Assembly: GCA_000961845.1 (NCBI GenBank)
Contig: LADZ01000068.1
Coordinates: 1 to 36,614, forward strand
DNA length: 36,614 nucleotides
From: Flavobacteriales bacterium BRH_c54
GTDB taxonomy: Bacteria > Bacteroidota > Bacteroidia > Flavobacteriales_E > Vicingaceae
Reading direction: 5' to 3'
Below are positions 19,544 to 33,864 of the stretch, piece by piece (the stretch's first letter is position 1; every line of letters begins with the position of its first letter). The position numbers were made by a program, and so were the translations under genes. The notes beneath the pieces were generated by a model. That model saw only the letters and a list, made by a program, of their open reading frames with translations, did no database searches and was not told the origin of the DNA.

Positions 19544-19557
19544 CTGATTTATGTCAG
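19544..19557. promoter_or_regulatory. Fnr-type dyad shared by moeA and the FNR-like gene
   Basis: CTGAT-TTAT-GTCAG, a TGA-N6-TCA dyad with symmetric C/G flanks. It is 22 bp from the -7 of moeA on one side and 22 bp from the -7 of the FNR-like gene on the other. Both placements are the class-II activator position, close to -40. Confidence 0.7.
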
Positions 19558-19579
19558 GAATTTTCCCAAAAAAAGTGAA

Positions 19580-19587
19580 CAAATTTG
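19580..19587 (+). promoter_or_regulatory. -7 element of the FNR-like gene
   Basis: CAAATTTG, one mismatch (first base) to TAnnTTTG, 22 bp after the dyad. It predicts transcription start near 19595, inside a longer possible reading frame, which is why ATG 19605 is preferred as the translation start. Confidence 0.55.
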
Positions 19588-19604
19588 TAGGTAAAATTAA
19601 AGTT

Positions 19605-20324
19605 ATGTCTCTTAACAAGATAAATATTCCTTCGTGTACAGCTTGCGACCACAAGAAAAGTGGTGTTTCTGTCTTTTGTAATTTAAATTTACATGAGATT
19701 GAAAATTTATCGGAACATAAAAGAAATCTTTTTTTTAAAAAAGGTCAATTGGTTTTTAGTGAGGGAAATCAGCCTCATGGTATTTTTTGCATTTATAAAG
19801 GTAAGGTGAAGATACATAAAATGGGAGACGAAGGGAAAGACCAGATTGTTAGGTTGGCAAAGGCTTCGAATATTATTGGTTACCGTTCTATTTTTAATAA
19901 TAATACTTATTACGCTTCGGCTACAGCTATAGAAGATACAGAGGTTTGCTTTATTTCTAAAGCTTATATTATAGAGTTGATTAAAACGAATAGTAACCTA
20001 ACGTTTAGTTTTATGAATATACTTTCTGAGGATTTAAAAAGAGCAGAGGAAAGCATTATTCACATGGCTCAGAAACATGTTAGGGAAAGAATTGCAGAAG
20101 CTTTGTTACTACTGAATGAAGCCTATGGATTAAAAGATGATGGAAAAACGATAGATTCCACATTAACCAGAAGAGAAATTGCCAATATTGCAGGAACCAC
20201 AACAGAAACATCTATAAGAATGTTGTCGGAGCTGGATAAAGATAAAATAATTCAGTTGGCTGGTAAAGATATCAGGATTCTTGATATGAAAAAACTCTAC
20301 AGAACCGCTAATATATTTGATTGA
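19605..20324 (+). CDS. FNR-like transcription regulator with candidate Fe-S cysteines
   Basis: The product is 239 residues. The reading frame opens at 19551, but ATG 19605 is chosen because a -7 element lies between. A cyclic-nucleotide-fold sensor domain is followed by a dimer helix and an HTH (LTRREIANIAGTTTETSIRMLSEL). Cysteines 11, 14 and 25 form an N-terminal C-x2-C-x10-C group, and C115 in TEVCFISK aligns with the fourth cluster ligand of E. coli FNR (C122, in the segment VCEIPFE). This suggests an oxygen-labile 4Fe-4S cluster, although C62 is also present. The recognition helix has E and R at the FNR/CRP contact positions, with Ile replacing FNR Ser212. The gene is likely autoregulated through its own dyad. 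Confidence 0.88.
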   Translation: MSLNKINIPSCTACDHKKSGVSVFCNLNLHEIENLSEHKRNLFFKKGQLVFSEGNQPHGIFCIYKGKVKIHKMGDEGKDQIVRLAKASNIIGYRSIFNNNTYYASATAIEDTEVCFISKAYIIELIKTNSNLTFSFMNILSEDLKRAEESIIHMAQKHVRERIAEALLLLNEAYGLKDDGKTIDSTLTRREIANIAGTTTETSIRMLSELDKDKIIQLAGKDIRILDMKKLYRTANIFD

Positions 20325-20357: not shown

Positions 20358-20371
20358 ATGACGAATGTCAT
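20358..20371. promoter_or_regulatory. Fnr-type dyad upstream of the HTH-less sensor gene
   Basis: ATGAC-GAAT-GTCAT, a perfect 5-bp-arm dyad, 22 bp before the -7 element at 20394-20401. Confidence 0.75.
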
Positions 20372-20393
20372 TTTTAAAACATTGAATAACAGT

Positions 20394-20401
20394 TACTTTT
20401 G
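20394..20401 (+). promoter_or_regulatory. -7 element of the HTH-less sensor gene
   Basis: TACTTTTG, a full TAnnTTTG match. It gives a transcription start near 20405 and a leader of about 20 nt to the TTG start. Confidence 0.65.
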
Positions 20402-20427
20402 CTTGGTTTTTAAAGATTAATTATATT

Positions 20428-20850
20428 TTGAGTAGTAATAAACGACATACAATAAAATTATCTAAAGAGCTTATAGATAAAGTAAAGCACATTGCTGACT
20501 TTTTTAAAGCTTATGATAAAGGAGAAGTACTTTTTTCCGAAGGAGAAATGCCAACTTATATTTATTTGTTAGAAAAAGGTGAAATTTCATTGGTAAAATT
20601 GGGAACAGATTGTGAAGTTGAAATTATGGAACATAAAAAAGGAGATATTGTTGGCTTAGATTTAATTTTTGATAATAAAAAATGCACTTATTCAGCAATA
20701 GTTAAAACAAGTTCCGAATTACATATTGTTGAAATAGAAAAATTTAAACAGTTTTTAATTAATGAAAATAGTTTATCACTAGAGTTGATTCAATATTTGA
20801 GTTCAGTTATAAAACAGATAGAAAATAATCCCATTTATTCTGTTAGGTAA
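20428..20850 (+). CDS. Stand-alone cyclic-nucleotide-binding-fold protein without DNA-binding domain
   Basis: The 140-residue product resembles the sensor half of a Crp/Fnr protein: YDKGEVLFSEGEMPTYIYLLEKGEISLVK (beta-roll start), HKKGDIVGLDL, then SELHIVEIEKF and a C-terminal helix (SLSLELIQYLSSVIKQIENN) corresponding to the dimerisation helix. Translation stops there; no HTH follows, and the next sequence in any frame is a terminator, so it is not an obvious frameshift. The start must be TTG 20428, because an in-frame stop lies at 20383 and there is no ATG before residue 41. It has its own full promoter plus dyad. It could heterodimerise with Crp/Fnr partners (inference). Confidence 0.8.
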   Translation: MSSNKRHTIKLSKELIDKVKHIADFFKAYDKGEVLFSEGEMPTYIYLLEKGEISLVKLGTDCEVEIMEHKKGDIVGLDLIFDNKKCTYSAIVKTSSELHIVEIEKFKQFLINENSLSLELIQYLSSVIKQIENNPIYSVR

Positions 20851-20912: not shown

Positions 20913-22292
20913 TTATTCATTAGGCTTAAAATGAGCTGTAAAGTGACGTAAAAATTGAGTTTCTTTTTTAATCTGATACCCTTTAACTTGTTTTTTGTTT
21001 TGGAGTATTTCATCAAAAGTTTCAATTACATATTCAATATGGCTTTGTGTGTAAACTCTTCTAGGAATTGCCAAACGCACCAACTCCATTGGTGCAGGAA
21101 TTAATTTTCCGTTTTCATCATATTTTCCAAACATTACAGAACCTATTTCTACAGTTCTAATCCCTGCTTTTAAATAAAGCTCACAAGCTAGAGCTTGTCC
21201 GGGATATTCATTAACAGGAATATGATCATATAGTTTTTTTGCATCAATATATACTGCATGTCCGCCAATAGGCATCATTACCGGAACACCCATTTTGTGT
21301 AAATGTTCGCCCAAATAGGCGGTACTTTTAATTCTGTATTCCAAGTAAGCAGGTTCAAAAACTTCTTTTAAACCTATTGCTAACGCTTCCATATCTCTAC
21401 CCGATAAACCACCGTAAGTTGAAAACCCTTCTGTAATGATTAATAAGTTGGTACATGCTTCTGCAATTGCACTATCTTTTAAGGCTAAAAATCCTCCCAT
21501 ATTAATAAGTGCATCTTTTTTGGCACTCATGGCTGCACCATCCGTTAAGGCAAACATTTCTTGTGCAATTTGTTCGTAGGTATGATTTTCAAAACCTTCT
21601 TCTCTGTGTTTAATGAAATAAGTATTTTCAGCTACTCTACAACAATCTAACAATAACATTACATGGTGCTTTTTACAGATGGCACTAACTTCTTTAGCAT
21701 TTTGCATGCTTACCGGTTGTCCACCACCACTATTATTGGTTACAGTTAGGATAACAGCTCCAATATTTTCAGCGCCTTTTTCTACAATTAGTTTTTCTAA
21801 TTTTTCGGTATTCATGTTTCCTTTAAAAGGATGGATTAATGCCGGGTCATGAGCTTCATCAATAACAATATCTATTGCTTCAGCACCTGAAAATTCTATG
21901 TTGGCTCGGGTAGTATCAAAGTGTGTATTGCTGATAAATGTTTTGCCTTTTCCTCCTAAATAGCCGTAAATAATTCTTTCGGCAGCTCTACCTTGGTGCG
22001 TTGGAAGTATAAACTCCATACCCGTAAGGTGTTTTACAGCACGCTCCATTCTTTCCCAAGATTTAGAGCCGGCATAAGATTCATCACCACGCATAATTCC
22101 TGCCCATTGTTCGGCACTCATTGCTGAGGTGCCGCTATCGGTAAGAAAATCTATAATTACTTGTTCCGATTGGAGTAAGAATGTGTTGTAATGTGCTTTT
22201 TCTAAAAATGCCTTTCTTTCTTCTTCGGTTGACATATAAATTGGTTCTACCGACTTAATTTTAAAAGGTTCTATAATGGTTTTGTGTTTCAT
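20913..22292 (-). CDS. tnaA: Tryptophanase
   Basis: A 459-residue PLP enzyme of the tryptophanase/tyrosine phenol-lyase family. It contains LTDSGTSAMS, PTHQGRAAE, the PLP lysine in MSAKKDALINMGG, and QALACELYLKAGIRTVEIGS. At the family-discriminating sites it has Asp after Phe in HFDTTR (TPL has Thr124 there). It also has Val and Ile in IRTVEIGS, where TPL has Met379 and Arg381. These are tryptophanase features although the N-terminus looks TPL-like. It converts tryptophan to indole, pyruvate and ammonia. The promoter carries an Fnr-type dyad and a leader of about 180 nt. It is convergent with the sensor gene across a shared terminator. Confidence 0.9.
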   Translation of the reverse strand: MKHKTIIEPFKIKSVEPIYMSTEEERKAFLEKAHYNTFLLQSEQVIIDFLTDSGTSAMSAEQWAGIMRGDESYAGSKSWERMERAVKHLTGMEFILPTHQGRAAERIIYGYLGGKGKTFISNTHFDTTRANIEFSGAEAIDIVIDEAHDPALIHPFKGNMNTEKLEKLIVEKGAENIGAVILTVTNNSGGGQPVSMQNAKEVSAICKKHHVMLLLDCCRVAENTYFIKHREEGFENHTYEQIAQEMFALTDGAAMSAKKDALINMGGFLALKDSAIAEACTNLLIITEGFSTYGGLSGRDMEALAIGLKEVFEPAYLEYRIKSTAYLGEHLHKMGVPVMMPIGGHAVYIDAKKLYDHIPVNEYPGQALACELYLKAGIRTVEIGSVMFGKYDENGKLIPAPMELVRLAIPRRVYTQSHIEYVIETFDEILQNKKQVKGYQIKKETQFLRHFTAHFKPNE

Positions 22293-22508: not shown

Positions 22509-22522
22509 ATGATAAATGTCAT
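22509..22522. promoter_or_regulatory. Fnr-type dyad upstream of tnaA
   Basis: ATGAT-AAAT-GTCAT, fitting TGA-N6-TCA. The class-II spacing is to the tnaA -7 and not to the Fic promoter on the other side. Confidence 0.7.
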
Positions 22523-33135: not shown

Positions 33136-33177
33136 ATGACATGAATCATAGTAGTTTATGATTTTAGTCATAAACTA
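33136..33177. promoter_or_regulatory. Two Fnr-type dyads (A and B) upstream of narC
   Basis: Site A is ATGAC-ATGA-ATCAT (33136-33149). Site B is ATGAT-TTTA-GTCAT (33158-33171) inside a larger perfect dyad with 10-bp arms, TAGTTTATGA and TCATAAACTA (33152-33177). Their centres are 22 bp apart, about two helical turns. The sequences at 22 bp downstream are only weak -7 matches (GAATTTTA, TTCTTTTA), so the nar promoter is not fixed. Confidence 0.6.
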
Positions 33178-33213: not shown

Positions 33214-33864
33214 TTAAATGGCTAAGCTTTCAAGAGCATTGAAATCTAGGATTTTTATATTTTTTCCAGAGCTTCGTATAATTTTTTCATCATTGAGTTC
33301 TTTAAGAGCTCTAATGATACTTTCATAGGTGGTATTTGTCAAGCTGGCGTAATCTTTACGAGGAATGGTAAAACTTAAAAGTTGTGGGTCTTTTTTGTCA
33401 GCACCAAAAATGGTATAATTGTAAAGAATTGCTCTGGCAACTCTATTTTTTACTTGAAGGTGATTAATTTTCGTTTCTGAATTTCTGAGTTCTTCGGCAA
33501 AAAACATCATTAGTTGATAGGTAAATTCAATATTGGTTTTTGCTAGTAAGTTAAATATATTTAAAGGTATAAAAGAAAGGGTAGTTTCTTCGTATGTCTT
33601 GGCAGAAACAGGATAAACCCAATCTCCACCAAAGCCTCTATGTCCTAAAATTTCTCCTTCCCCTGCAAGTCTAAAAATTTTTTCCTTACCAGTTGATTCG
33701 TTTGAAAATACTTTTACTTTTCCTTTATTAATGATGAATAATCCTTTAACATCATCGCCTTCTTTAAAAACAAGATTGTCTTTTTGTAAGGTGTAAACGG
33801 ATTTGTGAAATTCAATAAAATCTATCCATTCTTTTGAGCAGTACTGTTTTAAAAAGGAATCCAT
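33214..33864 (-). CDS. Crp/Fnr-family regulator next to the nar operon
   Basis: A 216-residue protein with a cyclic-nucleotide-fold sensor domain (KDNLVFKEGDDVKGLFIINKGKVKVF, GEILGHRGFGG), a long dimer helix and an HTH (IPRKDYASLTNTTYESIIRALKEL). It has only one Cys (residue 9), so an Fe-S cluster of the FNR type is unlikely; it could sense NO, haem, or another signal like the DNR group (inference). Glu and Arg of the recognition helix are at the same positions as in the other regulator of this window (E-x-x-I-R). Its promoter has an Fnr-type dyad. It precedes the nar operon in the same direction with a 167-bp gap. Confidence 0.85.
   Translation of the reverse strand: MDSFLKQYCSKEWIDFIEFHKSVYTLQKDNLVFKEGDDVKGLFIINKGKVKVFSNESTGKEKIFRLAGEGEILGHRGFGGDWVYPVSAKTYEETTLSFIPLNIFNLLAKTNIEFTYQLMMFFAEELRNSETKINHLQVKNRVARAILYNYTIFGADKKDPQLLSFTIPRKDYASLTNTTYESIIRALKELNDEKIIRSSGKNIKILDFNALESLAI

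Follow-up and report, generated by a model that had tools for sequence, protein, structure and literature searches.

A conserved Crp/Fnr paralogue without an HTH domain as a candidate FNR-induced anti-activator in Vicingaceae

Introduction

Crp/Fnr proteins form one of the largest families of bacterial regulators, and their control is thought to be exerted mainly through ligand, cluster and protein level. Damping by a partner that lacks the DNA-binding (HTH) domain is known for quorum-sensing regulators. As far as was found, the open-access literature describes neither an HTH-less Crp/Fnr family nor a damping partner of this kind for Crp/Fnr, in agreement with the preliminary description of the present locus, which knew of no established family with this role.

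The closest mechanistic precedents are the pairs TrlR/TraR and CerN/CerM. In Agrobacterium, TrlR lacks the HTH domain and lowers the activity of TraR through inactive heterodimers, as stated in PMC11655674 (citing Oger 1998; Zhu and Winans 1998; Chai 2001). Like the short protein considered here, TrlR is an HTH-less paralogue of a dimeric activator. The same paper describes it as an autoinducer-binding member of the LuxR family that is 88% identical to TraR, whereas the short protein has the Crp/Fnr fold, shares 26% identity with its neighbour, stands under an FNR-type promoter and would form a heterodimer that is so far a prediction. The CerM antagonist CerN of Cereibacter sphaeroides is an HTH-less paralogue with 31% identity that acts on a full-length regulator (PMC11655674); it also belongs to the LuxR family, whereas the short protein is a Crp/Fnr protein whose partner contact is putative.

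Within the Crp/Fnr fold, E. coli-type FNR and the Fnr1 and Fnr3 proteins of Herbaspirillum share the fold of the short protein, which retains the first part of their dimer helix, and heterodimers of paralogues exist (PMC5934665). However, these proteins bind DNA and need an Fe-S cluster to dimerise, whereas the short protein has neither an HTH domain nor the cluster cysteines. CRP/CAP and cNMP-binding domains have the beta-roll (PF00027) in common with the short protein, but not the cAMP contacts E72 and R82. A more distant parallel is SHP (NR0B2), presented in PMC3346990 as a eukaryotic nuclear receptor family member without a DNA-binding domain; its fold is unrelated and it belongs to another domain of life, so that it serves as an analogy only.

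The gene under study lies in a 36,614-nucleotide stretch of DNA from Flavobacteriales bacterium BRH_c54, which is referred to below as the window (Table 1).

The short gene, its product and its neighbours

The reading frame of the short gene is preceded by an in-frame stop at 20383, and no ATG, GTG or TTG start occurs between this stop and the TTG from which the gene is read. The sole Pfam domain of the product is cNMP_binding (PF00027; E 2.1e-15, above the curated cut-off), and Pfam gave no match to an HTH, unlike in the full-length regulators FNR-1 and nar-linked, which both have the beta-roll and HTH_Crp_2. No HTH remnant is hidden 3' of the gene, since the terminator and the end of the convergent tnaA at 20913 leave no room for one. 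The AlphaFold2 model (mean pLDDT 74.8) shows a beta-roll and, behind it, a helix at residues 113-131, the helix being modelled with low confidence (pLDDT 54-60 at its end), and Foldseek placed the model closest to NtcA, CAP, DNR and FNR. The preliminary description had claimed a sensor domain and dimerisation helix with a TTG start, no HTH and a terminator directly behind. All of this stands except for the helix, which reaches no further than about residue 155 (E. coli FNR numbering), its second half being lost.

Table 1. Positions of the short gene, its promoter and related features in the window
Feature	Position	Strand	Remarks
Short gene (140-aa HTH-less Crp/Fnr paralogue)	20428..20850	+	TTG start; Pfam, AlphaFold2, Foldseek, orthologues in three genera
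Parts of the short protein	beta-roll ~aa 26-110; truncated dimer helix ~aa 113-131
FNR-type dyad ATGACGAATGTCAT	20358..20371	+	exact ATGAYNNNNRTCAT upstream of all 11 orthologues
Bacteroidota -7 element TACTTTTG (matches TAnnTTTG)	20394..20401	+	exact here; 36 bp from dyad start
Intrinsic terminator, between convergent short gene and tnaA	20866..20902	.	17-pair stem; shuffles average 0.1
Dyad CTGATTTATGTCAG, between divergent moeA and FNR-1	19544..19557	.	each strand with a -7-like element at +36
FNR-1, full-length FNR-type regulator	19551..20324	+	HTH_Crp_2; FNR cysteines
tnaA promoter dyad	22509..22522	-	TAACTTTG exactly at +36
Dyad upstream of nar-linked cytochrome c/nar operon	33136..33149	-	-7-like GAATTTTA at +36
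nar-linked Crp/Fnr regulator, alternative partner	33214..33864	-	beta-roll + HTH_Crp_2; no Fe-S cysteines

The ATG at 19551, which is the first in the FNR-1 frame, falls within the promoter region, and the true start is probably the internal ATG at 19605 (239 aa), because the orthologues of FNR-1 start there. Its cysteines align with C20, C23 and C122 of E. coli FNR, with the counterpart of C29 shifted by one column, and they suggest that FNR-1 is probably a [4Fe-4S] oxygen sensor. The match of FNR-1 to the NCBIfam FNR model (2.2e-27) lies below the cut-off of that model, and its predicted structure is of too low confidence to be used (pLDDT 58).

A further protein of 125 aa without a Pfam match (L006:1916-2293, L008:1124-1501) overlaps the end of the short gene in four of the six genomes of the genus, where it is likely to be an operon partner of the short gene. 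It has homologues in 16 of the 46 family genomes and is absent from the genome of the window.

Promoter and regulon

The dyad ATGAYNNNNRTCAT is present without mismatch in the upstream regions of 11/11 short orthologues. In ten of them the distance from the dyad start to a -7 element with 0-1 mismatch to TAnnTTTG is exactly 36 bp, and in the eleventh it is 37 bp; a single fixed position would show such a -7 match by chance with a probability of about 0.014. At three short-gene loci (L010, L012 and L013) no FNR gene adjoins, and the dyad/-7 promoter has thus been retained for the short gene itself. If the -7 element is placed as is customary, transcription would begin near 20406, and the centre of the dyad would lie near -41.5, a class-II position.

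As a genome-wide regulon signal the dyad alone was uninformative (27 matches versus 29 in the control). In contrast, the bipartite pattern TGAY-N4-RTCA-N24-ANNTTTR, with the reversed pattern as control, gave 152 matches versus 14 over nine genomes, and 17 versus 2 in the genome of the window; only the dyad and -7 element at fixed spacing are informative genome-wide. Five of the 17 matches lie inside the 36.6-kb window, where 0.21 would be expected. They precede the short gene, tnaA, the nar operon, and the divergent genes moeA and FNR-1, which have one common dyad. Since a -7-like element is found at +36 on each strand, a single CTGATTTATGTCAG site may drive both moeA and FNR-1. Two exact dyads, 22 bp apart, occur at 33136-33171 before the nar-linked cytochrome c gene, and the -7-like element at +36 of the nearer one fits the relaxed bipartite pattern.

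Outside the window, genes downstream of the pattern include feoAB, a ccoN/ccoO-like set of a cbb3-type oxidase, a cytochrome c peroxidase, and moaA behind a gene for a hemerythrin-type protein, all names having been read from translations only. Such genes are classical targets of FNR-type regulators. Judged from its promoters, the gene set is an FNR regulon of the class-II type, and the claim of the preliminary description that the short gene stands under the same regulon promoter is upheld. The regulator that activates the short gene would be FNR-1 rather than another member of the family.

Conservation and association with FNR-1

Whole-genome searches identified HTH-less orthologues of 136-151 aa in 11 genomes of three genera: all genomes of the window's genus, with 50-88% identity in the five others, 4/4 genomes of a second genus (34-46% identity) and one genome of a third. 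The HTH is absent in 11/11, with the ORF stopping directly after the helix in each, and a local truncation or sequencing artefact is ruled out by these 11 orthologues. In a tree of the beta-roll and helix, the short proteins form one clade (support 1.0) on a long branch, apart from 42 full-length relatives. Among close pairs, dN/dS was 0.13-0.26 for the short gene versus 0.01-0.08 for FNR-1; the short gene is under purifying selection. Orthologues with a full HTH and relaxed selection, which the preliminary description had set down in advance as arguments against its reading, were looked for and not seen. Outside the family, no short orthologue was found in 395 genomes sampled from the class, in which the only match at E 1e-15 was one 354-aa frame, and the plasmids searched gave no match. 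A 152-aa match in G062 was rejected as a short gene, as it is a frameshifted full-length FNR.

Of the 46 family genomes, exactly ten carry FNR-1 (at least 66% identity), and each of these also has the short gene (Fisher 2.7e-9, kinship uncorrected); counts of the co-occurrence of the short gene with regulators are inflated by shared ancestry. The two genes stand side by side in eight genomes (six belonging to g1, together with G031 and G064). The search proposed in the preliminary description, for orthologues of comparable length that adjoin FNR-like genes, thus had a positive outcome. In G064 the adjacent pair is found where congeners have an FNR of 50-53% identity and no short gene, as if FNR-1 and the short gene had moved or been lost together.

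Dimerisation helix and proposed role

Residues 140-159 of E. coli FNR are the counterpart of the dimerisation helix of CRP; the D154A protein is a dimer without the cluster, and I151A is a monomer in which dimers are abolished (PMC4214427). The Fnr1-Fnr3 heterodimers of Herbaspirillum form via the same helix, and loss of the D154-equivalent acidic residue from a single subunit is enough to improve heterodimerisation (PMC5934665). In the short proteins, the helix segment matching E. coli FNR 139-156 has a mean identity of 59% versus 40% for the rest, and is the higher in 15/15 comparisons. In FNR-1 the two parts hardly differ (73 versus 71%). Position 150 (E150 in E. coli FNR) is Val, Leu or Ile in 11/11 short proteins and hydrophobic in 0/42 full-length paralogues, and position 154 (D154) is Ile, Met or Leu in 11/11 and hydrophobic in 1/42. 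Counterparts of the Fe-S ligand cysteines (C20, C23, C29 and C122 of E. coli FNR) are absent in 11/11.

This helix chemistry and the co-occurrence with the neighbouring FNR would favour inactive heterodimers. The reading put forward, with a probability of roughly one half, is that the short protein may act as an FNR-induced, heterodimer-forming anti-activator that provides negative feedback. At low oxygen, active FNR-1 would switch on the short gene from its class-II promoter. The short protein, having no Fe-S cluster ligands, would pair without a cluster via the N-terminal part of the helix, which is more hydrophobic at 150/154, and would take FNR-1 monomers into dimers with a single DNA-binding domain. 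Since such a one-HTH dimer could not hold the palindrome, FNR output would be capped. Heterodimerisation with FNR-1, loss of DNA binding and the sign of the effect are all predicted. Somewhat tentatively, the short protein could be termed a natural anti-FNR: an HTH-less paralogue that would dimerise without an Fe-S cluster and poison FNR dimers, in a loop encoded within the FNR regulon itself.

The main weaknesses of the anti-activator reading are the loss of half of the helix, the genome G021 and the Asp at position 151 in the L011 orthologue. With the C-terminal half of the helix missing, the dimer interface of the short protein is smaller than normal. The hydrophobic stripe ends at position 154: all 42 full-length paralogues have Ile or Leu at position 158, where few short proteins have a hydrophobic residue. 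G021 is the sole genome with the short gene (divergent, promoter intact) and without FNR-1, having only a 43% paralogue, so that FNR-1 is not the only partner there. The low identity of FNR-1 and the short protein (26%) and the low pLDDT of the helix also count against this reading, and hydrophobic residues at 150/154 would suit a homodimer, or packing of the helix against the beta-roll of its own chain, as well.

Alternative explanations

The short protein could instead be a homodimeric or monomeric sensor or adaptor whose beta-roll binds a ligand or a protein, for example as a co-activator or small-molecule buffer. The beta-roll has invariant residues of its own (such as G76, D78, Y88 and A90), and the hydrophobic positions 150/154 would also fit a homodimer. 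This explanation is nevertheless considered rather unlikely, given that the best conserved part is the helix and not the beta-roll, and that the short gene is distributed with FNR-1. When the phosphate-binding cassette of CRP (E72, R82, S83) was used as a test for cAMP/cGMP, E72 was found replaced by Leu, Ile or Val and R82 was never Arg in 11/11 short proteins, and the ligand buffer suggested in the preliminary description becomes less likely for cyclic nucleotides.

Damping of another Crp/Fnr paralogue, namely the nar-linked regulator or FNR-2 and not FNR-1, is judged unlikely. It would agree with the distribution of the nar-linked regulator (at least 57% identity), whose nine genomes all carry the short gene (9/11 short-gene genomes), and with G021, where the short gene is accompanied by the FNR-2 paralogue alone. 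On the other hand, G031 pairs FNR-1 and the short gene adjacently without a nar-linked regulator at that threshold, FNR-2 (at least 40%) occurs in many genomes lacking the short gene, and the physical linkage of the short gene is to FNR-1.

Heterodimers with FNR-1 might also be active but altered, for example through stabilisation of FNR-1, a changed half-site preference or activity retained at higher oxygen, making the short protein a positive or threshold-setting partner. Site classes do exist, because FNR-1 promoters mostly carry C/G as outer dyad bases versus A/T at other targets, and in Herbaspirillum Fnr heterodimers may co-activate (PMC5934665). A dimer with one HTH would touch only one half-site, however, and the HTH-less precedents TrlR and CerN counteract their partners (PMC11655674), which makes this role very improbable. 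Finally, a functionless, decaying FNR duplicate, as the non-AUG start and the faster evolution than that of FNR-1 might suggest, is scarcely credible, being contradicted by purifying selection, by frames that stay open across 11 genomes from three genera and by base-exact promoter spacing.

Significance

The observation made in the preliminary description was right, and its interpretation through inactive heterodimers and negative feedback is partly supported and plausible. The pattern TGAY-N4-RTCA-N24-ANNTTTR (loci L160-L166 of genome G000) is useful for annotating FNR regulons in Bacteroidota. If the anti-activator reading is true, dimer poisoning at the protein level would be added to the modes by which Crp/Fnr regulators are controlled, and it would explain how probable nitrate respirers cap FNR output.
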